Assembly (NCBI GenBank): GCA_000196815.1
Contig: FP929003.1
Location: 124,001 to 188,000, forward strand
Origin: Nitrospira defluvii
GTDB taxonomy: Bacteria; Nitrospirota; Nitrospiria; Nitrospirales; Nitrospiraceae
Direction of reading: 5' to 3'
DNA length: 64,000 nt
Below, piece by piece: positions 4,392-48,177 of the stretch. Position numbers and translations under genes: made by a program. Below the pieces are notes generated by a model. That model did not search any database, was not told where the DNA came from, and saw only the letters and a program-made list of their open reading frames with translations. Every line of letters begins with the position of its first letter. Position 1 is the stretch's first letter.

Positions 4392-4489
4392 TACGACCCG
4401 GTCTTCCACCCTTGTTCCTTCCTTCTTTCATGGCATACAGTCCCAGGAGTTGATGGTTCTGATCACGTGCCGTGCCATGGGAGGTCCCT

Positions 4490-5026: not shown

Positions 5027-5034
5027 GAGCGTAT

Positions 5035-5107
5035 AGCAGGTGGCGTATCGCCCGGAACGGTGACCGGACGGTTCTCTTTCCGAACCATGGGCGATACGCC
5101 ATCTGCT
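5035..5107. terminator. Bidirectional hairpin between convergent genes
   Basis: Two 19-base arms (5035-5053 and 5089-5107) are complementary at 18 positions around a 35-base loop. It sits between the ends of the MscS gene and the convergent GDPD gene. There is no strong T-run on either side. Confidence 0.5.
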
Positions 5108-5118
5108 CTGTGCCGAGC

Positions 5119-27312: not shown

Positions 27313-27840
27313 CTACTGTGGTGCTGGAGCGCTGGACACCCAGAACCCTCCCACCCCCTGTCGGACCTTGGCGTGAAGTAGGTAAATGAACGCCTTGACG
27401 ACGAAGTTGTGAGGACACTTGTGAGGGCCGAAGAGCCCATGCTTGTCGATCCGGCCCAACTTGCGATTACACGGCAGACACAATAATCCTCGCGCCTCGT
27501 TAGTCGCGTGGTCGTGATCGAGGTCCAGGGCGCGACCCTTGGCACCTTTGATGCTCGGCTTCTGACAGATTTCACAGACGGCAGAGCAAACCATCACCAT
27601 GTCTTGATATTGTTCCATCGTCATGCCGGTGATGCCCTGCTTGCGCCACTTACCTTCTCGGATCAGCGCGTTGGCACGCTCAGGGTTTGATGCCTGCCAT
27701 TGTCGGGCTCGGCTGATTACGTCATTCCTGTTCGCGGCGTACCACTTCGCCTGCCGTTCACGGTTGTACTCGGGGTTGTTCTCGCGCCACTTCTTACAGG
27801 ACAGCCTGTTTCGTTCTTTGCGTTCATCATCTGTTAGCAT
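27313..27840 (-). CDS. Endonuclease VII-like (HNH-type) nuclease
   Basis: A 175-residue protein with the recombination endonuclease VII signature: C-E-I-C-Q-K-P (first zinc Cys pair), LDLDHDHATNEARGLLC (catalytic His/Asp), then C-L-P-C-N-R-K-L-G (second Cys pair). The N-terminal 80 residues are basic helices with repeats (WRENNPEYN, WQASNPERA) that probably grip DNA. Phage members resolve branched DNA or act as homing-type nucleases. GGAAACTAC upstream is a weak ribosome site. It fits the island's replication/recombination gene set. Confidence 0.88.
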   Translation of the reverse strand: MLTDDERKERNRLSCKKWRENNPEYNRERQAKWYAANRNDVISRARQWQASNPERANALIREGKWRKQGITGMTMEQYQDMVMVCSAVCEICQKPSIKGAKGRALDLDHDHATNEARGLLCLPCNRKLGRIDKHGLFGPHKCPHNFVVKAFIYLLHAKVRQGVGGFWVSSAPAPQ

Positions 27841-27891
27841 GTACGTAGTTTCCTTTCATCAATGTGCAACTGATCGGGCCACATTGGCGGA

Positions 27892-28305
27892 CTACTTAGA
27901 GTACACCCTGTGAGTTGTTGCTACTGGGTTTCTATGCCGGTTCCTTCGTGCCGGGATGATTGATCCATACCGAAGGTTCCCGTACTCGGCGGTTTGTACT
28001 TCTGGCTTGAGCGCATGTGCGCCGTAGAACTTCAGCGCCCTTCGCAGTACCGCACTCGCGTTGAGCTTGTTGAGTGGGTTCGTAGGATCGCTATAGGTGG
28101 CTTGCAACTGGGTAAGCACGCCCTCTGATTCAACATCGAGGCGTACTGCGTGCCATGTAGTCTTGCCTTGACCATTGCGGGGGTTTCTTGAGTCGAAGGC
28201 GTAAGTTGTTTTCCCGAATCTAGATTCATGGCGGTTGACCTCCTGTGTGGTTGTCCGTTGGTGGAACTGATCGGGACTGAAATAGGGACGAGGGGTGCGA
28301 GCCAT
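27892..28305 (-). CDS. Hypothetical island protein related in layout to the 26743 gene
   Basis: A 137-residue frame with AVRLDVESEGVLTQLQATY...LNASAVLRRALKFYGAHALK, the same strand-helix-helix plan as the gene at 26743. ATG 28305 has no ribosome site. By contrast ACAGGAGG lies just before ATG 28229 in another frame, so the true start, or a small frameshift between the two frames, is unresolved. Function unknown; possibly a DNA-binding regulator. Confidence 0.5.
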   Translation of the reverse strand: MARTPRPYFSPDQFHQRTTTQEVNRHESRFGKTTYAFDSRNPRNGQGKTTWHAVRLDVESEGVLTQLQATYSDPTNPLNKLNASAVLRRALKFYGAHALKPEVQTAEYGNLRYGSIIPARRNRHRNPVATTHRVYSK

Positions 28306-29210
28306 GCGTGAAAATGTGGGCCTGTGGGCGTGCCCTCGTGCTAACTGGCTGGAGTTGCCGGCTTAGGGTCGCTAGATGGCACTTCCCTTTAGCTGCTCTC
28401 CCCGATTACGTACGGACCAAAGTGCGAAATATGAGACGCCAACCTTGCGTAGGTCACAGGCCCTAATGTAATAGCACTGGGTGAGGGGCAGTCTGGGCAG
28501 AGATCGTTGATCCTAGAGGCGCCTAGGCGGCTTCCTGGGGCATCCTCACCATTTCTGGGGGGAGGGTGTTCGGCTGGTAGTGGGCGAAGGGTTGCGAGGA
28601 ATGGGCTCGGCCGGTTCCTTCACCTTGTGCTGCTCCGCATAGTCAGGTTCCGTCTGAATTCGGACAACCTCCTGAACGATTTCCCCAGGCCACACCACCA
28701 CTTGCACGCTTTCTGAGAATGCACGTCAGCCTTGAGTGCTGAGGGAGGGCCGGTCACGGTTTCCCCTGCTGTGCTTCTCATTGGCAGGGTATTCCTGAAT
28801 TCAAACATATTCCCGCTTCCCTCAACAGCCCCTGCACCCGCTCTAGTGGCCTCGGCTCGCGGCTCTCAGGGACTACCAACGAGGCATGGGCTACTAGGCG
28901 AAAGGGCTACGGGTGGCGCGGAAATCACTAGGATAGAAAGGCATAGTTTCCCCCCTGTGGCGGTACGCATAGGACGGCAGCATCCAAATTCGGGGGGACG
29001 AAAAAATTGGGAGTACCAGGGTGAATCCCCGCTCCTGTGGCTGCTAGGCCCGCTGTTGAGGGGTACGGGTACTTTGCATCGTTACCCTGTTCCCCAAAAC
29101 CTACCCGAAACGACCCCATGAAACCCCGCGCCATTCGACCCCTTGACGTACTTGCCCATGTGTTATAGATTGCAACTGTCTAGGGGAACACCTAACGCGG
29201 GAGGCTGGAT
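28306..29210. other. Island stretch without a convincing gene
   Basis: About 0.9 kb. It contains a diverged repeat of a segment also found near 22163 (here 28499-28572, with a 22-bp insertion holding AGGCGCCTAGGCGG). It also has CGCATAGGACGGCAGCAT at about 28967, close to CGCATAGGACGGGAGCAT near 21780. No coding frame with a ribosome site was seen. Confidence 0.5.
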
Positions 29211-29825
29211 ATGGTGTGCAAGGCAAGGCGGGCAGTGATCTACGCTCGGGTGAGTACCGATGGGCAAACCACTGACAACCAAGTGCAGGAGCTACGGGCG
29301 ACGGCTGAGCGCAACGGCTGGGTAGTGGTTGAGGAGTTTGTAGACCGTGGCATCTCGGGTGCGAAGGGAAGGGAACACCGACCGGCGTTTGATCGGCTAT
29401 GGAAGGGCGCGGCTCGGAAGGACTTCGACGTGGTGATGGTATGGGCAGTGGATCGACTCGGACGCTCGCTGCAACACTTGGTCGAGTTCCTGTCTGAGCT
29501 ACACAGCAAGCGCATTGACCTGCTGATTCACCAGCAAGGCATCGACACCACGACCCCAGGCGGTAAGGCACTGTTCGGCATGTTGGGCGTGTTTGCTGAG
29601 TTTGAACGCAGCATGATTCAGGAGAGAGTGAAGGCGGGCATCAGGCGGGCGCGCGCCAACGATCCTAGCAAGCTATGGGGCCGCAAACCCTATGAAGTCT
29701 CCGACCCTCACCTAGTAGCGAAGGTGTTGGCACTCAGGAAACAAGGGCTAGGCATGAGGCCGATAGCGCGGCAGGTAGGCATCAGCCTCAAGACGTGTTG
29801 GCGGTTACTGCAAGTAGCGGCCTGA
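29211..29825 (+). CDS. Serine recombinase (resolvase/invertase family)
   Basis: A 204-residue small serine recombinase. The catalytic region is AVIYARVSTDGQTTDNQ, with the nucleophile Ser at about 16. It is followed by VVVEEFVDRGISGAKGREHRPAFDRL, VWAVDRLGRSLQHLVEFL, and FAEFERSMIQERVKAGI along the E-helix. The C-terminal HTH (VLALRKQGLGMRPIARQVGISLKTCWRLL) is complete. Such enzymes resolve dimers or invert segments. GGGAGG lies about 7 bases before ATG. It may resolve multimers of the excised island. Confidence 0.93.
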   Translation: MVCKARRAVIYARVSTDGQTTDNQVQELRATAERNGWVVVEEFVDRGISGAKGREHRPAFDRLWKGAARKDFDVVMVWAVDRLGRSLQHLVEFLSELHSKRIDLLIHQQGIDTTTPGGKALFGMLGVFAEFERSMIQERVKAGIRRARANDPSKLWGRKPYEVSDPHLVAKVLALRKQGLGMRPIARQVGISLKTCWRLLQVAA

Positions 29826-35187: not shown

Positions 35188-35216
35188 AGTATATGGCGGT
35201 GTCCAATGTTTGTCAA
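35188..35216 (-). promoter_or_regulatory. Promoter of the B12/MerR regulator
   Basis: On the minus strand: TTGACA (35216-35211), a 17-base spacer, then TATACT (35193-35188). One AAACATTGGACA motif (35200-35211) fills most of the spacer. Confidence 0.8.
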
Positions 35217-35293
35217 ATATTTATTGAAATAACTATTGACACATTGGACAAAAAGGGTTAAACATTGGACATAGAGGTTGCAAACATTGGACA
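35200..35293. promoter_or_regulatory. Operator array: four copies of (AA)ACATTGGACA
   Basis: Copies at 35200-35211 (reverse), 35241-35250, 35260-35271 and 35282-35293 (forward). The first lies in the spacer of the regulator promoter. The second overlaps the -35 and spacer of the rightward promoter, the third overlaps its -10, and the fourth lies just downstream. This is the expected layout for repression of both promoters by the adjacent regulator. Confidence 0.8.
35236..35264 (+). promoter_or_regulatory. Rightward promoter of the photolyase/SUMF1 array
   Basis: TTGACA (35236-35241), a 17-base spacer, then TAAACA (35259-35264). It is covered by operator copies and lies 50 bp before the first gene of the array. 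Confidence 0.75.
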
Positions 35294-35313
35294 TGAACAT
35301 GCGAGGAGTGATC

Positions 35314-35610
35314 ATGGCGACCACGAAGACAATGGAAGGAACTGCGGGACTGAGTGACATCCGGAGACAGATCCTGACTCTTCAGCAAGAGTCGAGCTGC
35401 CTGCGGTGCGGCGGACTAATGGTTCGGGATTTCTGCACGGACCTGTTGAGCGGAGCCAGCGGGCTCGATAGCGCCACTTCGCGTTGTGTGCAATGCGGGG
35501 ATGTCGTCGATCCGGTCATTCGGTGGAACCGGTACCTACAGCAGTCTGCCGGCGTAGTGCGGGAGATGAGGTCGTCGAAGCCGGTCCTGCAGGGCCAGGT
35601 CTCTGTTTAG
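35314..35610 (+). CDS. Zinc-ribbon protein, copy 1
   Basis: A 98-residue protein with C-L-R-C-G-G and C-V-Q-C-G-D-V-V-D-P-V-I, two Cys pairs about 35 residues apart that should form one zinc ribbon. A helical N-terminus (LSDIRRQILTLQQES) precedes it. The gene at 39413 encodes a paralogue with the same CxxCGG...CxxCGxVxDPVI plan. ATG 35314 follows GCGAGGAG with 5-base spacing. First gene after the B12-regulator operators, so it is the promoter-proximal member of the array. Function unknown; possibly a nucleic-acid or partner-binding adaptor. Confidence 0.7.
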   Translation: MATTKTMEGTAGLSDIRRQILTLQQESSCLRCGGLMVRDFCTDLLSGASGLDSATSRCVQCGDVVDPVIRWNRYLQQSAGVVREMRSSKPVLQGQVSV

Positions 35611-35666: not shown

Positions 35667-36629
35667 ATGCGGAGGCACACAGGTCTTCAAATTGGAATAG
35701 GAGCGATGCTCGTGGCTGGATCCATGTCGATGGCCGTGTCGGCGAAGGCGGCCGGCGACCATAAGGACATGGTCCTCATCCCGAGCGGCGAATTCACCAT
35801 GGGCAGTAACGAACATTCCGATGAGGTGAGGCACCAGGTGGTGCTGGATGCGTACCTGATCGACAAGTTCGAAGCGTCGAACGCGCGGTACAAGGAGTTC
35901 ATGCGGGCCACCGGTCATCCGGCACCGGCCTACTGGGACGATCCGCGTCTCAGCAAGCCCGAGCAACCGGTCGTGGGAGTGAGTTGGACGGATGCCAACG
36001 CCTTTTGCAAGTGGGACGGCAAGCGGTTGCCCACCGAGGCGGAATGGGAAAAAGCTGCCAAGGGTCCGGAGGGAGACAATCACTACCCGTGGGGACATCA
36101 CCTCGATCCGAAGAAGGCCAACTATGGACAGAATGTGGGACGCACCACGCCGGTGGACTCCTACCCTGAAGGGGTGAGCGGCTATGGCGTGTACAACATG
36201 GCGGGTAATGTCTTCGAGTGGGTGGACGACTGGTACGATCCAAAATATTACCGCACCAGCAATGCGTTGAATCCACGTGGCGCGGATAAGGGCTACAACT
36301 TCGCGAATCAAGGGCCGGTGAAGGTGTTGCGTGGCGGGTCCTGGCTGGCTCCGGAAACCTCGCTGCACACCAGCCACCGGTTCTGGAATCAGCCGGAGAA
36401 TAACTCCTATGGCGTCGGGCTGGGTTTCCGTTGCGCGAAGTCGGCCAGCGTGGTGTCCGATGAGGCCGCTCAAGCCGGGCGTGATGCCTTCATTCAGGCG
36501 CTTGTAGGCATGGGAGCGGAGAAGAATGCCGACGCCCTCGCCTCTATCGAGAAGGCTCTGGCGGCGGATCCCGACAACAAAGAGTATCTGGCCACTCGCG
36601 ATCTCATCAAGAAGAGCATGAAGAAGTAG
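35667..36629 (+). CDS. SUMF1/FGE-fold exported protein, copy 1
   Basis: A 320-residue protein with a signal peptide (residues 1-28), a SUMF1 domain (about 32-265) and a TPR-like tail (AFIQALVGMGAEKNADALASIEKAL). Domain motifs are MVLIPSGEFTMGS, PVVGVSWTDANAFCKW, RLPTEAEWEKAA, GNVFEWVDDWYD and VLRGGSW...GLGFRC. The segment after GGSW lacks the two copper-binding Cys residues of aerobic formylglycine-generating enzyme, so sulfatase activation is unlikely. It may be a structural or C-type-lectin-like relative. AAGGAGG precedes the ATG. It has a close paralogue directly downstream. Confidence 0.85.
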   Translation: MRRHTGLQIGIGAMLVAGSMSMAVSAKAAGDHKDMVLIPSGEFTMGSNEHSDEVRHQVVLDAYLIDKFEASNARYKEFMRATGHPAPAYWDDPRLSKPEQPVVGVSWTDANAFCKWDGKRLPTEAEWEKAAKGPEGDNHYPWGHHLDPKKANYGQNVGRTTPVDSYPEGVSGYGVYNMAGNVFEWVDDWYDPKYYRTSNALNPRGADKGYNFANQGPVKVLRGGSWLAPETSLHTSHRFWNQPENNSYGVGLGFRCAKSASVVSDEAAQAGRDAFIQALVGMGAEKNADALASIEKALAADPDNKEYLATRDLIKKSMKK

Positions 36630-36693: not shown

Positions 36694-37752
36694 ATGAAGA
36701 CAATGAGGAATGTAGTCAAGGCAGGACTGATCATGACCGTCGCTGTCATGGCCGCGACGGCACAGGCGGAGGATTCCATCATTCCCGAAGGTATGGTCTA
36801 CGTGGGACAAGGACCGTCGATCATGGGGTTAGACAAGGTCCACCCGGCAGATTCAGGGCGCCGGCTGACGCTGTACGACAAGCGAATGAAGACGCCCTTG
36901 TCTGCCGAAGCGTTCAACGACGAAGGGCCGGCGCATATGGTGTTCCTGGATTCCTATCTCATCGACAAGTACGAGGTGTCGAACAAGGACTATGGTGCCT
37001 TCATTAAGGCGACCGGACATCCCGCGCCGGCCTACTGGGACGATCCGCGCTTAAACAAGCCTCAGCAGCCGGTGGTGGGCGTCAACTGGATCGATGCTAA
37101 AACCTACTGTCAATATCGCGGGAAGCGGTTGCCCACCGAAGCCGAGTGGGAAAAGGCGGCTCGCGGCCCGCACGGCAACCTCTATCCCTGGGGCAACGAC
37201 TTCGATTCGAACAAGGCAAATTATGACAGGCATCATGATGCGACCTTGCCGGTGGATTCTCATCCGGAGGGTGCGAGCTACTACGGCGTGTACAACATGG
37301 CGGGCAATGTCTTCGAATGGGTCGGCGACTGGTATGACCCGAAATACTACGGGAGACTCGAAACCATGGTGAATCCCACCGGCCCGGAAAAACCCTTGTG
37401 GATCGGTGGAACCGGAACCTACGTCGACCGCTTGACCGTCGGTGAAAAGCGAGTCATCCGCGGCGGCTCGTGGATCGCGCCGGAAGGCACGATACGCTCG
37501 ACGCACCGGTTCTGGAATCATCCGCTCAATAACAGTTACGGCGTCGGTCTCGGTTTCCGGTGCGCCAAGGCGGCTCCAGCCGACTGGGAGCAGCGCATCA
37601 GGGATAGCTACATCACCGCGTTGGTGGAAATGGGGCGGGAACGCTTCACTGAGGCCCTGCAGGCGGTCAGCCGGGGTTTGGCCATGGATCCGGCGAACGT
37701 TGAATTGTTGGAGCTGCGACCTCTCATCGAACAGTCGATGAAGCAGCGATGA
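36694..37752 (+). CDS. SUMF1/FGE-fold exported protein, copy 2
   Basis: A 352-residue exported protein (signal 1-25, ending A-Q-A). The same domain runs from about 30 to 295: YLIDKYEVSNKDYGAFIKATGHPAPAYWDDPRL is almost identical to copy 1, then RLPTEAEWEKAARGP, GNVFEWVGDWYD and VIRGGSWIAPEGTIRS, GLGFRC. Again the FGE copper cysteines are absent. The tail is helical and TPR-like (ERFTEALQAVSRGLAMDPANVELLELR). Insertions near residues 45-75 and 230-245 distinguish it. It lies 64 bp after copy 1 with CAGGAGG before the ATG, so it is a tandem duplicate in one transcript. Confidence 0.85.
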   Translation: MKTMRNVVKAGLIMTVAVMAATAQAEDSIIPEGMVYVGQGPSIMGLDKVHPADSGRRLTLYDKRMKTPLSAEAFNDEGPAHMVFLDSYLIDKYEVSNKDYGAFIKATGHPAPAYWDDPRLNKPQQPVVGVNWIDAKTYCQYRGKRLPTEAEWEKAARGPHGNLYPWGNDFDSNKANYDRHHDATLPVDSHPEGASYYGVYNMAGNVFEWVGDWYDPKYYGRLETMVNPTGPEKPLWIGGTGTYVDRLTVGEKRVIRGGSWIAPEGTIRSTHRFWNHPLNNSYGVGLGFRCAKAAPADWEQRIRDSYITALVEMGRERFTEALQAVSRGLAMDPANVELLELRPLIEQSMKQR

Positions 37753-37804: not shown

Positions 37805-38173
37805 ATGACGTACAGCACGATGATCACACTGGTCGGCGGATTCACCGCGCTCTTGATGACGGCGGATCTCCACGCCGGTCCGATCGATGCCAGCCGCCAC
37901 CCCCATCCGGAGAAACTCCAGATGGTGCATGAGGCGGAACACAGCGTGGATCACGCGTGGGAGGTGTATCACCGCGCGGCCCTGGGGGGCACCGTGGCCT
38001 CGCCTGACCTGCAGGCGCAGATCGAACATCATCTGCATGAAGCCAGAACCCTTGTGACACAGGCGCAGGAGGCGGCCGACCGGGGAGACACGGGCAAGGT
38101 GGAACGGCTTGTCGGTGAGATCAAGATTCATACGGCCCAGGCAATCGCGGGGAGCAAGGAGCAGAAGAAATGA
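37805..38173 (+). CDS. Small exported helical protein
   Basis: A 122-residue protein with a signal peptide (about 1-24, ending L-H-A). The mature part is helical and His-rich (HPHPEKLQMVHEAEHSVDHAWEVYH, QIEHHLHEARTLVTQAQEAADRGDT). It resembles small periplasmic metal-binding-type helical proteins, but no known motif is complete. The TGA overlaps the ATG of the third SUMF1 gene by 4 bp, so both are translated together and probably act together. Confidence 0.65.
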   Translation: MTYSTMITLVGGFTALLMTADLHAGPIDASRHPHPEKLQMVHEAEHSVDHAWEVYHRAALGGTVASPDLQAQIEHHLHEARTLVTQAQEAADRGDTGKVERLVGEIKIHTAQAIAGSKEQKK

Positions 38174-39000
38174 CTCAAGGTTTGACCAGGAGAAGAACCA
38201 GGTGGACATGCATGAGCCTGTTCGTGACGGCAACCTGTGCGGTCGCCCTGACACCTGTGCTCGCGGCGCCGACTCTCAAGGAGCTGGATCCGGTTCCGAT
38301 GGTCACCGTTCCAGGCGGACCGTTTCTGATGGGCAGTGAGAATCCCAAGGGGCGGGCCGACGAGTGGCCGCAACGTTCGGTTCATGTCGATACGTTCGCC
38401 ATCGATCAGGTGGAAGTGACCAATGAGCGCTATATGGCGTTTGTCGCCACCACCGGCCATCGTAGCCCGCCGAATCCCTATGGCACGGGGGTCTTGGTCT
38501 CGGCCAAAGGGATCGAGCAGCTGCCGGTTGTGCAGGTGACATGGTACGACGCCAAAGCGTATTGCGCGTGGGCCAAGAAACGGCTGCCCACCGAAGCGGA
38601 GTGGGAAAAGGCCGCGCGCGGCACCGATGGCCGGATGTTCCCTTGGGGGAATGAACACCCGAGTCCGATTCGGGCGAATTTCGACCGGGAGTGGGTCGAC
38701 GACAAGACGTTGCACCCCATCGGTTCGTTGTCCGGAGGCGACTCGCCGTACGGCATCAAGGATATGTCCGGCAACGCGCGGGAGTGGGTGCAGGATTGGT
38801 ACGACCCCGACTATTACGCGAATGCTCCCGACAAGAACCCGCAGGGACCCGACAAGGGGATCGTCCGGGTCATTCGTGGAGGGTCGTGGCACAGCCCCGA
38901 GTCGGACATCACCGCGACGGCGCGAGGACGCGGAGGATTCGCGCTGCAGACACACGGCACCGGATTCCGGTGCGTCCGGGGGGGAGAGACAGCGAAATGA
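38170..39000 (+). CDS. SUMF1/FGE-fold exported protein, copy 3
   Basis: A 276-residue protein with an Arg-rich N-terminus, then a hydrophobic signal (about 14-32) and one SUMF1 domain without the TPR-like tail: MVTVPGGPFLMGSENPKGRADEWPQ, VDTFAIDQVEVTNERYMAFV, QVTWYDAKAYCAWAKKRLPTEAEWEKAARG, GNAREWVQDWYD, VIRGGSWHSPESD and GFRCVRG. Like the others it has no Cys pair after GGSW. It starts within the stop codon of the preceding gene. Function unknown; it is more distant from copies 1 and 2 than they are from each other. Confidence 0.85.
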   Translation: MTQGLTRRRTRWTCMSLFVTATCAVALTPVLAAPTLKELDPVPMVTVPGGPFLMGSENPKGRADEWPQRSVHVDTFAIDQVEVTNERYMAFVATTGHRSPPNPYGTGVLVSAKGIEQLPVVQVTWYDAKAYCAWAKKRLPTEAEWEKAARGTDGRMFPWGNEHPSPIRANFDREWVDDKTLHPIGSLSGGDSPYGIKDMSGNAREWVQDWYDPDYYANAPDKNPQGPDKGIVRVIRGGSWHSPESDITATARGRGGFALQTHGTGFRCVRGGETAK

Positions 39001-39189: not shown

Positions 39190-39321
39190 ATGACGCAGAT
39201 GTTCGTATATGGTATCGCGGCGATTGTGGTGAGTGTCGGAGCGGCCCTGTTCGCCAGGCAGCGGCGTGCTGCCTATGCGGTCGTGCGGCCGGCTCGGCCG
39301 AGAAGGTCACGGGTGCGATAG
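39190..39321 (+). CDS. 43-residue single-span membrane peptide
   Basis: Small gene with ATCAGGAGG 5 bases before the ATG. The product MTQMFVYGIAAIVVSVGAAL is one membrane helix followed by a very basic tail (ARQRRAAY...RPARPRRSRVR). It is probably an inner-membrane small protein. It lies in the same direction between the third SUMF1 gene and the second zinc-ribbon gene. No family recognised. Confidence 0.6.
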   Translation: MTQMFVYGIAAIVVSVGAALFARQRRAAYAVVRPARPRRSRVR

Positions 39322-39412
39322 AGCATGGGTGAGCACCGGAGCGGGAGCAGTGGTATGCAGTGGGCCCGGTTCAGTTCGCGGTCGTCCATTTTTATCCCAG
39401 TCGGGGGTTCCA

Positions 39413-39772
39413 ATGGAAACACATGGGACGCCAGAATCTCTCTCCACTCCGCAGCCCGGACATCACATCTGTCCGCGTTGCGGAGGATTGTTGTTGACAC
39501 AGCACTATATCGATTTGCTTGATGATACCGGTCAGATCGATATTACGGCATGGCATTGCACGATGTGCGGCGAGGTGCTCGACCCGGTCATCCTGAAGAA
39601 TCGCCGGAGCCCGCCGCCGAACCTGCTGTATGGCACAAAGCAGAGAAAGTTCAGCCAGCGAGTGACGGCCGTTTCCGACAGCAGGCCTGTGAAGCAATCA
39701 TCGGACGATCGAGCACCGGACGAGAGTGACGAGGAGTCGGCCGATGAAGCCGACCAGGACGGGGCATCGTAG
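39413..39772 (+). CDS. Zinc-ribbon protein, copy 2
   Basis: A 119-residue paralogue of the gene at 35314. C-P-R-C-G-G and C-T-M-C-G-E-V-L-D-P-V-I have the same spacing and sit about 32 residues apart. It has a longer, acidic C-terminal tail (DDRAPDESDEESADEADQD) that is probably disordered. ATG 39413 follows CGGGGG; longer upstream frames lack a ribosome site. Function is unknown. The two ribbons bracket the SUMF1 genes. Confidence 0.7.
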   Translation: METHGTPESLSTPQPGHHICPRCGGLLLTQHYIDLLDDTGQIDITAWHCTMCGEVLDPVILKNRRSPPPNLLYGTKQRKFSQRVTAVSDSRPVKQSSDDRAPDESDEESADEADQDGAS

Positions 39773-39804
39773 CTGTGGACTGTGCCAGACGGGAGGACGG
39801 ACAG

Positions 39805-40743
39805 ATGAAAATCATCGGCGCCGGAGGAACGGGATTCATCGGCCATGCGTTGGTCGAAGAGCTGGCTCGACAGGGTCATGAGGTGGTGGTCTTGAGCCGC
39901 CGGTCCGGTCATGCGTCTCAGTCGTCGGTCCGGTTCGTAGAATGGGATGCTCGCTCTGCCGGAGCCTGGCACTCTGACGCGGCGACGGCAGATGTCGTCA
40001 TCAATCTTGCCGGTGCGCCGATCGCCGATGGGCGATGGACGGAATCCCGCAAACGGCTTCTGGTGGAGAGCCGGGTTATGTCGACCAGACTGCTGGTAGA
40101 CGCATTGGCCGGCCGGTCTGCCCCCCTTCCCCTGTTGATCAGCGCATCGGGGATCGGCTACTACGGCCCGAGCGACGATCGGCTTCTGAATGAGGCGTCG
40201 CCGCTCGGTCGGGGCTTCCTCGCCGAGCTGTCTGCCGCCTGGGAAGCGGAGGCCTTGCGCGCCGGTCAGCTCGGGACGCGTGTCGTCCTGCTGAGAACCG
40301 GGATGGTGCTCGAACAGGGCGGTGGCGCGTTGCCGAGGATGTTGCTGCCTTTTCAGCTCTTTGCCGGAGGGCCGGTGTTGCCGGGTACGCAATGGGTGTC
40401 ATGGATTCACCGGGCGGATCTTATCGGACTCATCCAATGGGTCATCGCGACGGCGACGATCTCAGGCCCTGTGAACGCAGTGGCGCCTGAGGCGGTTACG
40501 ATGAAGACGTTCTGTACCACAGTCGGCAAGGTGCTCCATCGTCCTTCTTGGCTTCCGGTTCCCGGTCTGGCCTTGCATCTGGCGCTGGGTGAGTTGGGGA
40601 CGTTGATGACCACCGGACAACGTGTCGATCCGGCGAAGGCGAAAGCCGGGGGCTATATCTTCCGTTATCCGGCCCTGGAGCCGGCCTTGCGAGCGATCGT
40701 CAACAAGGAGGACCAGGCATGTCTGCCTTCCTCGACTCGGTGA
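39805..40743 (+). CDS. TIGR01777-type NAD-dependent epimerase (SDR family)
   Basis: A 312-residue extended SDR protein. G-A-G-G-T-G-F-I-G at residues 5-13 binds the dinucleotide, and VVINLAGAPIADGRWTESRK is the family hallmark. S-A-S-G-I-G-Y-Y-G carries the catalytic Tyr, and VSWIHRADL and a DUF1731-type C-terminus follow. It is the cell-division-inhibitor SulA-like or YfcH group, with no proven substrate. ATG 39805 is set by GGGAGG. The next gene overlaps its end by 25 bp, so they are coupled. It is a common partner of photolyase and B12-regulator genes. Confidence 0.88.
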   Translation: MKIIGAGGTGFIGHALVEELARQGHEVVVLSRRSGHASQSSVRFVEWDARSAGAWHSDAATADVVINLAGAPIADGRWTESRKRLLVESRVMSTRLLVDALAGRSAPLPLLISASGIGYYGPSDDRLLNEASPLGRGFLAELSAAWEAEALRAGQLGTRVVLLRTGMVLEQGGGALPRMLLPFQLFAGGPVLPGTQWVSWIHRADLIGLIQWVIATATISGPVNAVAPEAVTMKTFCTTVGKVLHRPSWLPVPGLALHLALGELGTLMTTGQRVDPAKAKAGGYIFRYPALEPALRAIVNKEDQACLPSSTR

Positions 40744-41201
40744 TGCAGTACCTGCAGGCCCTGGCTGTTGCGGTCTTGGTCGGCAAGGTCGTGCTGCTGT
40801 CGTTTGTGGTGGCGCCGATTCTGGCCAAGAGTCTGGACCAGGAAGCGTTTGGGAAAGTCGTCCGCCGGCTCTTTCCTGCCTACTATGTACTCGGCATGGG
40901 AACCGCTGCGGCCGGGCTGTTGTCGGCCACCGTGCTGGGGAGCACACGTGGGTGGACTCTGCCGGTGCTGATCGCAGTCGGAATCTGGCTCGGGATTCTC
41001 GCGGCAGAATCTTATTGCCGGGCGCCTCTCACTCCGCAGAGCAATGCGATGCGTGATCGATTGAAGGAGCAGGAACAGCACGGGGTCGTCGATGCGACGT
41101 TGAAGCAGGCCTGGAATCGATTGCATCAGCGGTCCTTATATCTGAACTCACTGGTGTTACTGGCAGGCTTGTGTTTGGTGGGCGTTGCGCGTCAATTCTG
41201 A
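40719..41201 (+). CDS. DUF4149-like membrane protein
   Basis: A 160-residue protein with four hydrophobic segments (about 10-32, 50-72, 78-97, 140-158). The first, ALAVAVLVGKVVLLSFVVAPILAK, and the loop AFGKVVRRLFPAYYVLG match the TMEM205/DUF4149 family, membrane proteins of unknown role. AAGGAGG precedes the ATG within the epimerase gene. It is in the same transcript as its neighbours. Confidence 0.75.
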   Translation: MSAFLDSVMQYLQALAVAVLVGKVVLLSFVVAPILAKSLDQEAFGKVVRRLFPAYYVLGMGTAAAGLLSATVLGSTRGWTLPVLIAVGIWLGILAAESYCRAPLTPQSNAMRDRLKEQEQHGVVDATLKQAWNRLHQRSLYLNSLVLLAGLCLVGVARQF

Positions 41202-41223
41202 TTGTCACGAAGGGAGAGGGACG

Positions 41224-41706
41224 ATGAAGAAGCAGAACAATACCTCCGTCTACTTGGTCGTAGGATTCTTGAGCATCTGCCTGAGCCACTCTTCTGCCGC
41301 AATCGGCACAGCCCGGGCGAGCGATGGGCATGAGAAGGCAGGGGCGCCGGCACCCACATTCAGTTTGGAAAGCACGATTCCGGATGGCGTGATCGGAGTG
41401 TCGCTGCACGTCGGGGCGGAGCGTGTGGGTGAGACCGCGGTGCTCTACGTGGCGCACGTATTGCCCGATGGACCGGCGGAGAAAGCCGGGCTCAAGCAAG
41501 GAGATGAGCTGACGACCGTAGACGGTGTTGCCGTGACCGGAAAGACCTACGAGCAAGTGGCCCTCATCGTTCGGGGCGAGCCCGGGTCGGTGGTGAAGTT
41601 GGGGGTGAAAAGCGAAGGCGGTTCGCGCGAGGTCTCCGTGACTCGTGTATCGGGCCAGACTCTGTACAAAGGACAAATGGGATCACACGGCGGCTCGGGC
41701 CGATAG
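41224..41706 (+). CDS. Exported PDZ-domain protein
   Basis: A 160-residue protein with a signal peptide (about 1-34) and one PDZ domain (about 60-145): LYVAHVLPDGPAEKAGLKQGDELTTVDGVAVTGKTYEQVALIVRGEPGSVVKL. No protease domain is attached, so it is a stand-alone periplasmic peptide-binding module. GGGAGAGGG precedes the ATG. It lies 22 bp after the DUF4149 gene. Confidence 0.8.
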   Translation: MKKQNNTSVYLVVGFLSICLSHSSAAIGTARASDGHEKAGAPAPTFSLESTIPDGVIGVSLHVGAERVGETAVLYVAHVLPDGPAEKAGLKQGDELTTVDGVAVTGKTYEQVALIVRGEPGSVVKLGVKSEGGSREVSVTRVSGQTLYKGQMGSHGGSGR

Positions 41707-41713
41707 GTGGCAT

Positions 41714-42238
41714 GTGAAACGGATGCTTGCGGCGCTCGGATTGTCGATGATCGTGGCCGGACCGTTTGCCGTCGAGGGGCATGGACAGGTGGTGCCTGTC
41801 TCACGGACCTCCGGCATCGAGAGAACGGGGTTATTCCTCCTGGCGGGCGACTATCGCCGGGCGCTGGAGGCTTGTGAGCAGGCCATTCAGGAGCGGCCCT
41901 CGGCAGAAGCCTACCTTCAGCTCACCTATGTCTACCAGGCGATCGATGCCTACCTTGAACAGCTTTCGAAGGATGAGAGCTGGACGGCCGTGGAACAGTT
42001 GTATCTGAACCTTGCCTATCGACACACGGAGGATCTCGTCGATCCACCGGGCGGCCTGGCTCGCATGGCGAAGGAAATGATTCAAACCAGCGTGCGCCAG
42101 CAGTCCGATGTCAGTGCTGCGATGGCAGTACGGCTGAACCGGGCGACGGCCGACCGGCTCTGGCAGGAGCAGGCGCAATGGCGGCACACGCATCCCACCG
42201 AATGGTGGCGGGCGTTTCCGGATTCCTGGGGTCGATGA
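41714..42238 (+). CDS. Exported TPR-like protein
   Basis: A 174-residue protein with a signal peptide and a TPR-like first helix pair (TGLFLLAGDYRRALEACEQAIQERPSAEAYLQLTYVYQAI). The rest is helical and ends in a Trp-rich segment (QWRHTHPTEWWRAFPDSWG). GTG 41714, 8 bp after the PDZ gene, is preferred (AGGTGG upstream); ATG 41723 is possible. Function unknown; tight packing suggests it works with the PDZ protein. Confidence 0.65.
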   Translation: MKRMLAALGLSMIVAGPFAVEGHGQVVPVSRTSGIERTGLFLLAGDYRRALEACEQAIQERPSAEAYLQLTYVYQAIDAYLEQLSKDESWTAVEQLYLNLAYRHTEDLVDPPGGLARMAKEMIQTSVRQQSDVSAAMAVRLNRATADRLWQEQAQWRHTHPTEWWRAFPDSWGR

Positions 42239-42286
42239 ATGAGCACGGAGCCAGGGAGTCCGTCCGCGGGGAAGGAGCATGAGAAC

Positions 42287-42718
42287 ATGACCGGACACAC
42301 GACTTCACGGGGCATCGATATCAAAATCTTCGGGGCGCTCTTTCTGCTGGTGGGATTGATCGATGTGCTGATCATCGAATTGTTTCCCGCCTATGCGCTC
42401 AAACTGTTCGGCGTCACGATTGCCGGTCCGTTGGCCTATGTGGTCAAGTTGCATTCGCCGGCCGTGCATTTTCTGATCGGTTACGGGTTTCTGTTTCTGC
42501 GTCCGTGGGCCTGGGGAGTGGCTATGGCTTATGGAGGATTCGGCCTTACCAGCGAATTGATGAACCAGTTTCAATTCGGTTTCCATCAGTTGCGCACGGG
42601 CTTCATGGCCACCACGGCCCTGTTTCTTTGTTATGTCGCCTGGCGGCGAATCCTGTTCGCCGATCCTGTCCCTCCGGCACAGCGGCTCACCTCCTCCACT
42701 CCCGAGGTTCACCTATGA
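42287..42718 (+). CDS. Hypothetical four-helix membrane protein
   Basis: A 143-residue protein with membrane segments at about 12-32, 40-60, 70-90 and 100-118 (IFGALFLLVGLIDVLIIELF; FLIGYGFLFLRPWAWGVAMAYGG). It has no known family. ATG 42287 follows AAGGAG with 9-base spacing; an in-frame ATG at 42239 is possible. Its stop codon overlaps the photolyase start (ATGA), so the two genes are coupled. Confidence 0.65.
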   Translation: MTGHTTSRGIDIKIFGALFLLVGLIDVLIIELFPAYALKLFGVTIAGPLAYVVKLHSPAVHFLIGYGFLFLRPWAWGVAMAYGGFGLTSELMNQFQFGFHQLRTGFMATTALFLCYVAWRRILFADPVPPAQRLTSSTPEVHL

Positions 42719-44160
42719 AAGGTCTGGTCTGGTTTCGCCGAGATCTCCGGCTCAGTGACAACCCCGCCCTGTCGGCGGCCTGTCAGGAATGTCGGGAGAT
42801 TGTGCCGCTGTTCGTATTCGATGAACCGCTGCTGCGTTCACACGCGTTCGGCTCAGCCTGCGTCGGGTTCATGCTGGGGTGTCTGGAGGAGTTGCGCCGG
42901 TCTCTGGCCCTGCACGGTGTGTCCCTCGCTTGGCGGATGGGCGATCCGGTTGAATCGGTCCTGCAGGCGGCGGACGACTTCAAGGTCGATGCGGTGTATT
43001 GGAATCGAGACTATGAACCGGCGGCGCTTGAACGGGATCGCGAGGTTCAGCAGCGGCTGGCACAACAGGGTCGCACGGTCAGGACGTTTAAGGACCATGT
43101 CGTGTTCGAAGCGGAGGAAGTGCGCGGGCTGAGCGGAGACCCGTTTCAGCGCTACAGCGCGTATCGCGACCGCTGGTGGACGAAATGGCGGGCCGCTGCC
43201 CCGCCTCTGCTGGGCATCCCCTCGTTTCCGCCGGCCGGCAAGGCGTCTACTCCGGATTCGCGCAAATGGCCTTCAGTGACCGACCTGGGATATGAGTCGG
43301 TGCCGATGTGGATCGAGCCGGGTGAACAGGCGGCCCATGCCAGACTGCAGTGGTTTCTGCGAGGGCCGGTTCATCAGTATGTGACAGGCAGGAATCTTCC
43401 GGCCATCGACGGCACCTCGAAGTTGTCGCCCCATCTGCGCTTCGGGACGGTCTCTGCGCGCACGTTGGTGCATGCGGCGCTGAATGCGCTTGCCAAAGGT
43501 GGTGCGGTATCGCGCGCGGACGTCTTCACCTGGGTCGATGAACTGGTCTGGCGGGAATTTTTTCAGCAAGTCCTCGCGGCGTTTCCGCACGTGGCGCATG
43601 GGCCGTTCAAAGCGAAACCGGGTCTTCCCGAACCCAGACCTGCGGGGCCTGAGCGCGATCGGTTGTTTGCCGCCTGGTCTCAGGGCCTCACGGGCTATCC
43701 GATTGTGGATGCCGGCATGCGGCAATTGAACCAGACAGGATGGATGCACAATCGCGTACGGATGGTGGTCGCCTCGTTTCTGGTGAAGGACCTCCGGGTC
43801 GATTGGCAGAGCGGAGAGCGTTATTTCATGGAACGGCTCGTCGACGGCGACCTGGCTGCCAACAACGGCAACTGGCAATGGTGCGCCTCGACGGGGACGG
43901 ATGCCATGCAGGGCTACAGGATTTTTAATCCGAGAATCCAAAGCGAAAAGTTCGACGCCGAGGGGGAATATCTTCGCCGCTATGTCCCGGAACTCAAGCA
44001 TGTGCCGACGAAATGGATTCATGAGCCGCATCTCATGCCGCCGTTGGAGCAGGTGCAGGCCGGATGCCGCATCGGATCGGATTATCCGGAGCCGATCGTG
44101 GACCATCGACAAGCGCGGCAGGAATATCTGGATCTCGGAAAGGCGCCGGTGAAGGCATGA
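42715..44160 (+). CDS. phrB: Deoxyribodipyrimidine photolyase
   Basis: A 481-residue blue-light DNA repair enzyme that splits cyclobutane pyrimidine dimers. The antenna domain starts GLVWFRRDLRLSDNPAL. The FAD domain has SKLSPHLRFGTVSARTL, VWREFFQQVL, G-Y-P-I-V-D-A-G-M-R-Q-L, WMHNRVRMVVASFL and the hallmark NNGNWQWCASTGTD followed by RIFNP. Length and motifs fit class I CPD photolyase. It overlaps the genes on both sides by 4 bp. Its place behind a B12 photoreceptor's operators supports light-controlled DNA repair. Confidence 0.95.
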   Translation: MKGLVWFRRDLRLSDNPALSAACQECREIVPLFVFDEPLLRSHAFGSACVGFMLGCLEELRRSLALHGVSLAWRMGDPVESVLQAADDFKVDAVYWNRDYEPAALERDREVQQRLAQQGRTVRTFKDHVVFEAEEVRGLSGDPFQRYSAYRDRWWTKWRAAAPPLLGIPSFPPAGKASTPDSRKWPSVTDLGYESVPMWIEPGEQAAHARLQWFLRGPVHQYVTGRNLPAIDGTSKLSPHLRFGTVSARTLVHAALNALAKGGAVSRADVFTWVDELVWREFFQQVLAAFPHVAHGPFKAKPGLPEPRPAGPERDRLFAAWSQGLTGYPIVDAGMRQLNQTGWMHNRVRMVVASFLVKDLRVDWQSGERYFMERLVDGDLAANNGNWQWCASTGTDAMQGYRIFNPRIQSEKFDAEGEYLRRYVPELKHVPTKWIHEPHLMPPLEQVQAGCRIGSDYPEPIVDHRQARQEYLDLGKAPVKA

Positions 44161-45110
44161 TGACCTCTCCGCTTCGCCTGGGCATCAGCCGTTGTCTGCT
44201 CGGGGAGGAGGTCCGTTTCGATGGAGGCCACAAACGGGACGTGTTTCTGACCGAGGTGCTGGGTCGGTACGTTGAGTGGGTGCCGGTCTGTCCGGAAGTC
44301 GAAGCCGGGCTCGGGACACCGCGTGAAGCGATGCGACTGATCGGCAATCCCCAACAGCCGCGGCTGGTCGCCATCAAGAGCGGGCGGGATCACACGCTGG
44401 CGTTGGAGACGATGACCGGGAAGCGCCTGGGTGATCTTGAGCAGCTGGACTTGTCCGGGTTTGTGTTCAAGAAAGACTCACCGAGTTGCGGGGTGGAGCG
44501 GGTTCGTACATACAACGAGCATGGCATGCCGGGCAGAAAGGGTGTGGGATTGTTTGCACGCGCCTTTCTCGATCGGTTTCCGCTCATTCCGGTGGAGGAA
44601 GAGGGGCGGCTCTGCGATCCGATCCTGCGGGAAAACTTCATCGAGCGGGTGTTCTGTTATCGTCGTTGGCAGGATCTGATGCAGAGCGGCGTCACCAGGC
44701 AGGCGTTGGTGCGGTTTCATACGATCCACAAATATCTGCTGTTGGCCCATAGCGCCCCGCACTATCGTCAGCTCGGGCGACTGGTGGCGCAGGTGAACGA
44801 GTATCGCCCGAAAGACCTGGCCATCCGGTACGGCGAACTGTTTATGCAGGCCCTCGCGGCGAAGGCGACGGTGCGAAAACATGTGAATGTGCTCCAGCAC
44901 ATCCTGGGTCATTTCAAAGAACGGCTGGATGCGGAGGAAAAAGCCGAGCTGTTGAGCGTGATCGGGGACTACCACCAGGGACTCACGCCCCTGATTGTTC
45001 CGCTGACATTGATCAAGCACTACGTACAGATCTTTGATGTCGAATACATTCGCGACCAGGTGTATCTGAATCCGCATCCGAAGGAGTTGATGCTCCGCAA
45101 TCATGTCTAG
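44157..45110 (+). CDS. DUF523/DUF1722 fusion (YbbK-YbgA type)
   Basis: A 317-residue fusion. The N-terminal DUF523 domain (about 5-150) is recognised from LGISRCLLGEEVRFDGGHKRD, VCPEVEAGLGTPREAMRL and FKKDSPSCGVERVR. The C-terminal DUF1722 (about 185-310) has FHTIHKYLLLAHSAPHYRQLG. Such proteins are usual neighbours of photolyase genes, although their activity is unclear; conserved Cys residues suggest metal or cluster binding. It begins inside the photolyase stop. Its own TAG is the first three bases of a 206-bp repeat element. Confidence 0.88.
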   Translation: MMTSPLRLGISRCLLGEEVRFDGGHKRDVFLTEVLGRYVEWVPVCPEVEAGLGTPREAMRLIGNPQQPRLVAIKSGRDHTLALETMTGKRLGDLEQLDLSGFVFKKDSPSCGVERVRTYNEHGMPGRKGVGLFARAFLDRFPLIPVEEEGRLCDPILRENFIERVFCYRRWQDLMQSGVTRQALVRFHTIHKYLLLAHSAPHYRQLGRLVAQVNEYRPKDLAIRYGELFMQALAAKATVRKHVNVLQHILGHFKERLDAEEKAELLSVIGDYHQGLTPLIVPLTLIKHYVQIFDVEYIRDQVYLNPHPKELMLRNHV

Positions 45111-45313
45111 CAGGCTGGGAAAAAACTTGATGATGGCGCATTGCGTTATGACCAACTCGTGCGTCGTATCGGTAGTTGAATCACGTGCAGGATGCGAAAA
45201 AAGGCTGTCCAGCAAGGCCGCAGCGAACGAAGAGGTGAATCGTACCCGTGCCGTACGGTGCGCCTCTGAGTGATGCGAGAACGCCACTGGGGGACTTTCC
45301 CCGCATCCTGCTG
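45108..45313. repeat. Inverted-repeat-ended element, copy 2
   Basis: Second copy of the element at 1406-1610. The core from about 45199 is close to identical, while the left part is more diverged. It starts with the stop codon of the DUF523/DUF1722 gene and ends directly before the ribosome site of the next gene (GGAAAGGAG). Confidence 0.75.
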
Positions 45314-45326
45314 GAAAGGAGCGGCT

Positions 45327-45695
45327 ATGCCGCACGTAGTAATCGAATCGACCGGTGAGCTCCAGGCTGTGTACCAAGCCTTCGCCCCGATGTTGCAACG
45401 GACGGAGGGGGAGATTGTCAAGGTTCAGGAGTGCTACCTGGCGAAGAGCGGACGAGAAGCGCTGCTGGATGCGGTCGTGATCGAGCAGGGTACGGCGCGC
45501 AGTTTTTTCATTCAGCTGAAACGGCACGAGACGACCATCACCGTCCGTCTTCTTCCCGCCACCGATCCCGAGAAGACGCCGGCCGTCAAAAAGGCGATGG
45601 CGCTGGTGGCCGGTCTCATCCGGAAGGTGTATCCGGCGAGCCGCTACGGCAAGACTAACCTTCAGGAGTATCTGGAGTCCCCGGTGTCGATGTGA
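45327..45695 (+). CDS. Hypothetical 122-residue protein
   Basis: Soluble protein, MPHVVIESTGELQAVYQAFAPMLQR..., with mixed alpha/beta features (ALLDAVVIEQGTARSFFIQLKRHETTITVRLLP) and a charged helix at the end. GAAAGGAG lies 6 bases before the ATG and abuts the end of the repeat element. No family recognised. It is followed 39 bp later by the CbiX-like gene. Confidence 0.65.
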   Translation: MPHVVIESTGELQAVYQAFAPMLQRTEGEIVKVQECYLAKSGREALLDAVVIEQGTARSFFIQLKRHETTITVRLLPATDPEKTPAVKKAMALVAGLIRKVYPASRYGKTNLQEYLESPVSM

Positions 45696-45734
45696 GTGCA
45701 AGTAGGTGTGAATTTCAATCAGAGGAGTGATGAC

Positions 45735-46244
45735 ATGGCAACAGTGCGACAGGGTGTGATTCTCGTCGGGCATGGCGGTATCCCCAGGGGATGCCCGCAG
45801 GACTTGGTGACGAAATTGAAACGGCTGGAGGGGCAGCGGCGCGCGGCGAAACAACCGGCCTCGGCCGAAGAACTGGAATTGGATGCCAAAATCCGCCAGT
45901 GGCCGAGGAACGCCGAGACGGATCCGTATCAGGCCGGGCTTGAAGCGGTGGCGGCGCAATTGCGCGCCAACCTGGGCGATGTGTTGTTCGCCGTGGCCTA
46001 CAACGAATTTTGCGCCCCCACACTGGAAGAGTCGGTCGAGCAACTCGTCAAGCAGGGGGCGACTCACATTACGGTGGCGACGACGATGTTCACGCCGGGC
46101 GGTTCGCATTCGGAAGTCGAGATTCCTGAAATCCTCGAGCATCTTCGCCCACAGTATCCCGGGGTCGAGTTGCGCTATGCCTGGCCGTTTGATTTGAGCC
46201 TGGTTGCGGGGACGCTGGCCGAGCAGGTGCGGCGATTCTCCTGA
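45735..46244 (+). CDS. Sirohydrochlorin chelatase-like (CbiX) protein
   Basis: A 169-residue protein of the CbiX/SirB class: G-V-I-L-V-G-H-G-G-I-P-R-G at the start (metal-site His), VLFAVAYNEFCAPTLEESVEQLVKQGATHITVATTMFTPGGSHSEVEIPEIL in the middle. Such enzymes insert Co2+ or Fe2+ into sirohydrochlorin for cobalamin or siroheme. A charged insertion (about 20-55) is longer than in standard CbiX-S. Its position in a cluster run by a B12-binding regulator is notable. GAGGAGTGATGAC precedes the ATG. Confidence 0.75.
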   Translation: MATVRQGVILVGHGGIPRGCPQDLVTKLKRLEGQRRAAKQPASAEELELDAKIRQWPRNAETDPYQAGLEAVAAQLRANLGDVLFAVAYNEFCAPTLEESVEQLVKQGATHITVATTMFTPGGSHSEVEIPEILEHLRPQYPGVELRYAWPFDLSLVAGTLAEQVRRFS

Positions 46245-46306
46245 CGGAGTTCCTGCGTATGGAGAGGCGCGGCCGGGATGCCGGTCAGGGGTGACCTGGG
46301 AGTCGG

Positions 46307-46906
46307 ATGATGCACGGACCGGAGAAAATTTCAGAGTGGCTCGTCGTCATCGGGCTGGCGGTTTCGGCACTCGTGTCCTCGCCCGTCATCGGCGGAGCGG
46401 TTGAAATCGAAGGCGTGACGTTTGCCGATACGTTCCGGGCCGGTCCCTTGCCGATGCCGCTTCAGGGGGTAGGGTTGGCGAAGTTTCTGCGCACGATCAA
46501 GGTGTATGTCGGGGCACTGTATCTCGCGCCGGGGACTAACCCTGAGCGCGTGTTGGATGACGTGCCGAAGCGTCTGGAGTTGTCCTACTTCAGAGCCATC
46601 CAGGCCGGTGACTTCGGGCAGGCAGCGATGAAGGTGCTGGCCGACAATGTGTCGCCGGCCACGATCACGCGCCTGAAGCCTCGCATCGAGCAGCTCCATC
46701 GGCTCTATCAGGACGTGAAGCCGGGGGACCGGTACGGGCTGACCTATCTCCCCGGAGTCGGAACCGAACTCGCCTTCAACGGCGAACGGAAGGGCATTGT
46801 GGAGGGGGCCGACTTCGCCGCCGCGTACTTCGCCATCTGGCTCGGCCCGGATCCGATCAATGAAGCCTTGAAAGAGGGGCTCATGCACCGGCGGGAGGGG
46901 GGCTGA
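46307..46906 (+). CDS. Exported chalcone isomerase-like protein
   Basis: A 199-residue protein with a signal segment (about 12-30) and a chalcone-isomerase-like domain: VEIEGVTFADTF, L-Q-G-V-G-L-A-K-F-L-R-T-I-K-V-Y-V-G-A-L-Y-L, LELSYFRAIQAGDF, LTYLPGVGTELAFNGE. Bacterial members are not flavonoid enzymes; they probably bind fatty acids or lipids in the periplasm. It starts ATGATG, and the ribosome site is modest. It is a regular member of photolyase/CFA-type clusters. Confidence 0.82.
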   Translation: MMHGPEKISEWLVVIGLAVSALVSSPVIGGAVEIEGVTFADTFRAGPLPMPLQGVGLAKFLRTIKVYVGALYLAPGTNPERVLDDVPKRLELSYFRAIQAGDFGQAAMKVLADNVSPATITRLKPRIEQLHRLYQDVKPGDRYGLTYLPGVGTELAFNGERKGIVEGADFAAAYFAIWLGPDPINEALKEGLMHRREGG

Positions 46907-46986
46907 CGCCGGTGATCGATGGAGAGCGCTGAAAGAATCCGTCCGTCAGGTGCCTTCGTAGAAGAGCAGGAGAGGAATCCGCTGTC

Positions 46987-47403
46987 GTGCAACCGGTTGT
47001 CGAACGATTCAAACAGATCTACGGCGGACTGACGATTCGCTCGTTGGGACTGCTGGACGAGTTGTACAGCGACGACGTCGAATTTCAAGATCCCTTTCAC
47101 CGGATCGCCGGACTCCCCGCCCTGCGCCGCTATATGGCTGCACTCTACGCGCAGGTGGAGGCCTGTTCATTCCGGTTCGAGGACGATGTCCGGCAAGGCA
47201 ATTGTGCCGTGTTGACCTGGACCATGCAGCTGAACCACCCGAGGCTGAATGCAGGCGCGGTGGTGACGGTTCCCGGTTCGACGCTCATTCGTTTTCGAGA
47301 CACGGTGTTCTATCACCGCGATTACTTCGATGCCGGTGCGATGGTGTACGAGCAGCTTCCGTTGATCGGCATGCTCATCCGGACGATCAAAGGCCGAGTG
47401 TGA
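46987..47403 (+). CDS. NTF2/SnoaL-like protein
   Basis: A 138-residue cone-fold protein: YGGLTIRSLGLLDELYSDDVEFQDPFHRIAGLPALRRYMAALY, then a beta sheet (CAVLTWTMQLNH, VVTVPGSTLIRF, YHRDYFDAGAMVYEQLPLIG). It belongs to the NTF2-like superfamily, with no catalytic residues assigned here. It begins with GTG 46987. The SDR gene starts 4 bp after its stop, so it is part of one operon. Homologues often accompany SDR, amine-oxidase-like and CFA-like genes. Confidence 0.82.
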   Translation: MQPVVERFKQIYGGLTIRSLGLLDELYSDDVEFQDPFHRIAGLPALRRYMAALYAQVEACSFRFEDDVRQGNCAVLTWTMQLNHPRLNAGAVVTVPGSTLIRFRDTVFYHRDYFDAGAMVYEQLPLIGMLIRTIKGRV

Positions 47404-47406
47404 CTC

Positions 47407-48177
47407 ATGAACCGAACCAGTCTCAATGCGCGACGGGTGTGGGTGACCGGCGCCTCGACCGGTATCGGCCGGGCGGTCACGCTGGAGCTCGTTCGTCGCG
47501 GGGCCACCGTCTTTGCCTCGGCACGGAACGAATCGGCGCTCAACGAGCTCGTCCGTGAATGCGGAGACGATCGTGTCGCGGCGCTTCCGTTCGATGTGAC
47601 CGACCGGACCGCCAATCAGCGGGCGGTCAACGACATGCACCGCCGTGCAGGGGGCCTGGATATTGCCTTTCTCAACGCCGGTACCTGTGAGTACGTGGAT
47701 GTGGCGGCATTCGACAGTGCGCTGTTTGAGCGGACGATCCGCACCAACTTCCTGAGCATGGTCTATGGGATTGAAGCGGCGCTCCCGCTGCTGCGGCAGT
47801 CACCGGCCCCGCAGCTCGTGGGGATGAGCAGTACGGTGGCCTACCGCGGGTTGCCTCGCTCCGAAGCCTATGGGGCGTCGAAGGCGGCGATCAAGAACCT
47901 CTTCGAATCGCTGCAGGTCGATCTCGCGCCCGAAGGCATCAGCGTGTCGGTCGTGTGTCCGGGGTTCGTACGGACACCGTTGACCGACCGGAACGATTTC
48001 TCGATGCCGTTCAGGATCGAAGCCGAGGACGCGGCCCGACGCATCGTCGACGGGATCGAGGCCCGGAAGCCGGAGATTCATTTCCCGAGGCGATTCAGCC
48101 TGCTCTTCAAGTGCCTGACCCTGCTCCCGAGCCGGTGGTACATCGGCCTCTGCGCCAGAATGGTGAAGCAGCCATGA
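47407..48177 (+). CDS. Short-chain dehydrogenase/reductase
   Basis: A 256-residue classical SDR: T-G-A-S-T-G-I-G at 14-21, NAG at 90-92, catalytic Ser142, Tyr155 and Lys159 (YGASKAAIKNL). The PG motif (VVCPGFVRTPL) follows the active site. Substrate unknown, perhaps a lipid intermediate given the neighbours. It overlaps the FAD protein gene by 4 bp. Length is normal. Confidence 0.92.
   Translation: MNRTSLNARRVWVTGASTGIGRAVTLELVRRGATVFASARNESALNELVRECGDDRVAALPFDVTDRTANQRAVNDMHRRAGGLDIAFLNAGTCEYVDVAAFDSALFERTIRTNFLSMVYGIEAALPLLRQSPAPQLVGMSSTVAYRGLPRSEAYGASKAAIKNLFESLQVDLAPEGISVSVVCPGFVRTPLTDRNDFSMPFRIEAEDAARRIVDGIEARKPEIHFPRRFSLLFKCLTLLPSRWYIGLCARMVKQP

Follow-up and report, generated by a model that had tools for sequence, protein, structure and literature searches.

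The 64,000-nt window analysed here corresponds to bases 124001-188000 of the Nitrospira defluvii genome, which consists of a single contig of 4,317,083 bp. Within it, the gene of a CarH/LitR-type regulator (carH) and a long run of genes on the opposite strand diverge from two sigma-70-type promoters (Table 1). Reading away from carH, this run encodes Zn-ribbon, FGE1, FGE2, 122-aa, FGE3, Zn-ribbon, SDR39U1, DUF4149, PDZ, photolyase and RudS proteins, in that order. An earlier note on this DNA had the plus-strand promoter reading into a photolyase array. A photolyase gene does lie downstream, but the first genes encode Zn-ribbon and FGE-sulfatase-like proteins, and about 7 kb separate the promoter from the start of the photolyase gene, which is class I-type and has its domains from about position 42724.

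Exact copies of ACATTGGACA occur four times within 94 bp, once in reverse (35200-35209 on the minus strand; 35241-35250, 35262-35271 and 35284-35293 on the plus strand), as the earlier note had reported. The whole genome holds seven exact copies, and since the three outside the locus are isolated, the cluster is not a product of chance. In addition, a genome scan with the relaxed pair ATTRRACA-N9..16-ATTRRACA returned none outside this locus. Both promoters proposed in the note can be read in the sequence. The regulator promoter joins TTGACA to TATACT across a 17-bp spacer, matching 11 of 12 consensus bases, and one copy of ACATTGGACA fills this spacer. The operon promoter joins TTGACA to TAAACA across 17 bp, with one copy overlapping the -35 and spacer and another the -10, while the remaining copy is located downstream of the predicted transcription start.

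The operator unit of CarH proteins is an 11-bp direct repeat, 5'-nnnnTnnACAn-3', to which a single MerR-type DNA-binding domain binds; one of the repeats contains the -35 element (PMC9304148, PMC8156234). Extended by one base, ACATTGGACA is one such unit, and a scan for TnnACA revealed that both TTGACA boxes also fit it, raising the number of repeats from four to six. The idea of a 10-12 bp operator motif therefore stands in that the motif fits the CarH repeat and is conserved, but the 10-mer belongs to a single 11-bp repeat, and the two -35 boxes are further ones. The six repeats form two arrays, each oriented with its own promoter. In the minus array, ATATTTGACAA and then ACATTGGACAC make a perfect 11-bp tandem. 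The plus array runs ACTATTGACAC, ACATTGGACAA, ACATTGGACAT, ACATTGGACAT, and its spacings of 9, 21 and 22 bp, rather than a tandem 11, are the unusual aspect of the locus. The reversed copy of ACATTGGACA is simply a member of the regulator's own array, and because each array points in the direction of its own promoter, this inversion does not in itself require the looping that had been suggested from it. No RNA element was matched in an Rfam search of the region.

Table 1. Features of the carH locus, in positions of the window.
Feature	Position	Strand	Remarks
CarH/LitR-type regulator, 305 aa	34257-35174	-	MerR HTH, four-helix B12-binding_2, Rossmann B12-binding
-10 TATACT, regulator promoter	35188-35193	-	Read from sequence
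CarH-type direct repeat ACATTGGACAC, fills regulator-promoter spacer	35199-35209	-	Offset 11; 53/72 family promoters
CarH-type direct repeat ATATTTGACAA, includes -35 TTGACA (35216-35211)	35210-35220	-	11-bp register with ACATTGGACAC
Repeat ACTATTGACAC, includes -35 TTGACA (35236-35241), photolyase-operon promoter	35232-35242	+	Offset 0
Repeat ACATTGGACAA	35241-35251	+	Offset 9 from -35; 68/78 family promoters
-10 TAAACA, 17-bp spacer	35259-35264	+	Mostly TATACA in relatives
Repeat ACATTGGACAT, overlaps -10	35262-35272	+	Offset 30; 30 or 31 in 69/78
Degenerate repeat slot	35273-35283	+	Offset 41; some conservation in relatives, complete repeat in other families
Repeat ACATTGGACAT, predicted 5' leader	35284-35294	+	Offset 52; 47/78
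Small CxxC (Zn-ribbon-like) protein, first gene of operon	35314-35610	+	No Pfam match; start from conserved AGGAG-ATG
Three FGE-sulfatase-domain proteins	35667-36629, 36694-37752, 38170-39000	+	FGE1-FGE3
122-aa protein	37805-38173	+	Between FGE2 and FGE3
Second Zn-ribbon protein, SDR39U1/TIGR01777, DUF4149, PDZ protein, photolyase, RudS	39233-45110	+	
CbiX-like, chalcone-isomerase-like, SnoaL, SDR, FAD amine oxidase, DUF1365, CMAS, DUF2878	45270-52049	+	Same-strand continuation; candidate transcript members

The regulator contains the domains MerR_1 (PF13411, E 1.8e-15), B12-binding_2 (PF02607) and B12-binding (PF02310), all above the Pfam gathering cut-offs, and its best matches in a sequence search of the PDB are TtCarH/LitR (E about 4e-28). 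With its AlphaFold model (mean pLDDT 87.8), the top PDB folds are all TtCarH; the cobalamin domain superposes at an rmsd of about 2.9 A, while the whole-chain rmsd is 10-14 A because the domain orientation either differs or is poorly predicted. Residues W131, H132, E141 and H177 of TtCarH function in cobalamin binding and switching (PMC10442372). They align with W143, H144, E153 and the lower-axial-ligand H190 of the regulator, which has both histidine ligands of the cobalt and whose W-x9-EH motif (W143-x9-E153-H154) is retained in 93 of 97 collected homologues. The W-x9-EH cap residues and the lower-axial His are all four invariant among 26 aligned homologues. These domains, ligand residues and fold bear out the B12 photoreceptor-type regulator proposed earlier. 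Since the protein scores 129.1 bits against the narrow NCBIfam CarH equivalogue (NF052513), under the curated 400-bit cut-off, we call it a class I CarH/LitR protein by architecture and residues, and its function putative. Assignment to class II LitR, which has lost the Rossmann B12 domain and has a LOV partner encoded nearby, was rejected as both B12 domains are present, and no LOV (PAS-type) family was reported among the neighbouring proteins scanned. The genome also encodes CbiC and two adenosyltransferases, making a supply of AdoCbl plausible. One Nitrospira orthologue (locus L021, 8001-8915) has Arg (WRTGRINVAVEH) at the position of the His that, upon photolysis, becomes the upper ligand of the cobalt, offering a natural test case for this step.

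Of 296 genomes of the phylum examined by protein search, 68 encode the regulator, and the orthologues of the locus are nearly all from Nitrospira. Upstream regions were collected from these relatives, and TnnACA offsets were counted from the forward -35. Among 78 forward promoters of the Nitrospiraceae, repeats lie at offset 0 in 76, at 9 in 68, at 30 or 31 in 69 and at 52 in 47, against an expected count of about 1.5 per offset, and a TATACA or TAAACA -10 lies at offset 23. On the regulator side, repeats occur at offset 0 in 72 of 72 promoters and at offset 11 in 53 of 72. Across 39 non-redundant promoters, which were selected for sites at 9 and 30 and in which the promoter hexamers contribute to the conservation, conservation within the forward repeats reaches 95% at the T..ACA positions, compared with 74% elsewhere in the region; a trace of a repeat is seen in the same set at offset 41. 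The arrangement of the regulator beside divergent, repeat-bearing promoters is conserved across the class.

The search for the motif upstream of orthologous regulators, which the earlier note had proposed as a check, likewise found it conserved, including in a MAFFT alignment, so that the refuting case named there, a motif not shared by relatives, does not hold. Among 20 chosen genomes that encode the regulator, 15 contain a strict pattern, TTGACACATTRRACA-N10..14-ACATTRRACA, and none of 20 genomes lacking the regulator does; the five carriers that miss it include variants with an altered base or spacing. Similarly, 17 of 18 regulator-less genomes also have no FGE2 homologue, the one exception having FGE2 near a contig end. 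Some Nitrospira relatives (loci L031 at 8001, 11046 and 15112, L035, L036, L037 and L125) have more than one carH-like gene, two or three in number and separated by 3-10 kb, with the extra copies near another FGE-like gene and most copies having their own operator with equal offsets. In another family of the order (L133 at 4260-5126, L134, L135, L137 and L138), a second MerR-B12 protein of 30-35% identity is encoded within the operon, between RudS and a CbiX-like gene; the intact W-x9-EH is lost in three of five, as if these proteins were B12-blind.

The 9-bp step is particular to the Nitrospiraceae, with two members having 10. Families of the class and order outside the Nitrospiraceae space their forward repeats in 11-bp steps, at offsets 0, 11, 41 and 52 or 0, 11, 31, 42 and 53 (only five and six sequences), so that the total span of about five helical turns is kept and the occupied slots vary. 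Assigning the shift between 9 and 11 bp to a single tree event was dropped, as a quick protein tree gave four changes of spacing label with weak deep branches; one label (L136) was mis-scored, and no gain or loss is claimed. In TtCarH, one dimer contacts DR1 and DR3, 22 bp apart, and another domain contacts the middle repeat (PMC9304148). In the Nitrospiraceae, two helical turns separate each of the sites at 9, 30 and 52 from the next, so they could be read by the TtCarH assembly, the middle repeats being weak, or by another assembly. It is possible, though on balance doubtful, that the 0/9/30/52 geometry reflects a CarH-DNA assembly specific to the Nitrospiraceae and unlike the tandem 11-bp mode, with the domains two turns apart on one face of the DNA and the -35 repeat out of register.

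Like the class I LitR proteins of Thermus thermophilus and Bacillus megaterium known as CarH, the Nitrospira regulator combines a MerR domain, AdoCbl-binding domains, W-x9-EH and the axial His, and its operators similarly place 11-bp nnnnTnnACAn repeats over the -35 (PMC9304148, PMC8156234). Unlike those operators, which are tandem 11, the Nitrospira forward array departs from the 11-bp step, and its predicted target is a photolyase/FGE/RudS operon that contains no carotenoid genes, whereas theirs is carotenoid synthesis. The P_crt operator of Myxococcus xanthus (DR1-dr2-DR3-DR4-dr5) also combines full repeats with degenerate ones across about 55 bp, and its -35 falls in one repeat (PMC9304148). 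The Nitrospira locus differs from it in that the promoter of the regulator gene has a second array, divergent from the first, and in the shift to 9 bp of the repeat beside the -35 repeat. As in the light-controlled class II LitR systems of Pseudomonas (PplR1, PmlR2), the protein is a predicted repressor of a photolyase/RudS-type operon, and one site lies between the transcription start (predicted in Nitrospira) and the start codon (PMC9758184, PMC11417400). The Pseudomonas proteins, however, have one B12 domain and a LOV partner, where the Nitrospira regulator has both B12 domains and the ligand residues, and their site, TGTACA-N12-TGTACA, differs from the Nitrospira repeats.

RudS, which here has TudS-DUF1722 domains, is known from light-responsive operons (PMC11417400), and photolyase is common in Nitrospira (PMC9239080). 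The operon is largely syntenic across the class: the gene order from carH to RudS persists for the most part throughout the genus and can be followed, despite some losses and local rearrangement, as far as another family of the order. A scan for sigma-70 promoters within the operon found no clear internal ones, and terminator-like sites in the gene run are near chance level. From the common strand, the gene order and the lack of clear internal signals, the run of roughly 17 kb is predicted to form one transcript. The three FGE-sulfatase (formylglycine-generating-enzyme-like) proteins that head this predicted light operon are kept in Nitrospiria loci with occasional losses, and a literature search found no paper linking FGE, photolyase and MerR. 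Next to RudS lies the gene of a CbiX-like protein of the cobalt/nickel chelatase family (45696-46244); in deeper relatives its neighbour is the gene of the second B12 regulator, and it may provide a link to cofactor supply. The window also encodes endonuclease VII and resolvase upstream of the locus (27313-29825), and the distance between the P450 and DCC1 genes is larger in loci L010 and L011 than in the window, which suggests turnover of this flank.

Taken together, the locus very likely contains the operators through which a CarH/LitR-type B12 photoreceptor-repressor, released by light, controls its own gene and a photoprotection and repair operon. Binding, repression, light release and AdoCbl dependence are what we infer from the computed features. 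In the dark, the AdoCbl-bound regulator would form an oligomer with its DNA-binding domains on the 11-bp nnnnTnnACAn repeats, covering the -35, spacer and -10 of both divergent promoters and excluding RNA polymerase. Two targets would thereby be repressed, the regulator's own gene by autoregulation and the sunlight-repair operon, which is probably kept off in the dark. Light would break the Co-C bond and dissociate the oligomer, freeing both promoters, and in relatives that require B12, a shortage of the vitamin may also derepress them.

In another reading, derepression would mark such a shortage: the regulator binds the repeats but senses mainly B12 (AdoCbl) supply or redox state rather than light. 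The relative N. marina requires external B12 (PMC8115632), so that free AdoCbl may vary, and a CbiX-like gene belongs to the downstream run. However, the downstream photolyase and RudS genes suit light, all residues of AdoCbl photochemistry are retained and the genome encodes CbiC and both adenosyltransferases, making this reading improbable. Still less credible is that the repeats serve a different transcription factor, with the adjacent regulator a bystander: though their core, ACATT, specifies more than the published TnnACA consensus does, the repeat fits that consensus, the array has no counterpart elsewhere in the genome, the strict pattern is missing where the regulator is missing, and extra regulator copies in some genomes have their own operator.

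The MerR-type DNA-binding domain also raises the question of classical MerR activation, in which the promoter is untwisted. MerR activators have 19-20-bp spacers and a palindromic site in the spacer, and spacers of 17 bp fit plain repression. Both spacers here are 17 bp, which favours steric repression, and the sites are direct repeats overlapping the -35 and -10; activation of this kind is accordingly a very remote prospect.

The predicted light-released repressor at this locus suggests that a major group of nitrite oxidisers has a light switch based on vitamin B12. The literature searched describes no B12 light switch in nitrite-oxidising Nitrospira, and one paper that mentions both CarH and Nitrospira discusses CarH for other bacteria only. 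With their fixed spacing, some ninety naturally occurring variants of the operator would be useful for gauging the spacing tolerance of the CarH oligomer. Such a switch would tie together light, B12 supply and DNA repair in nitrifiers.
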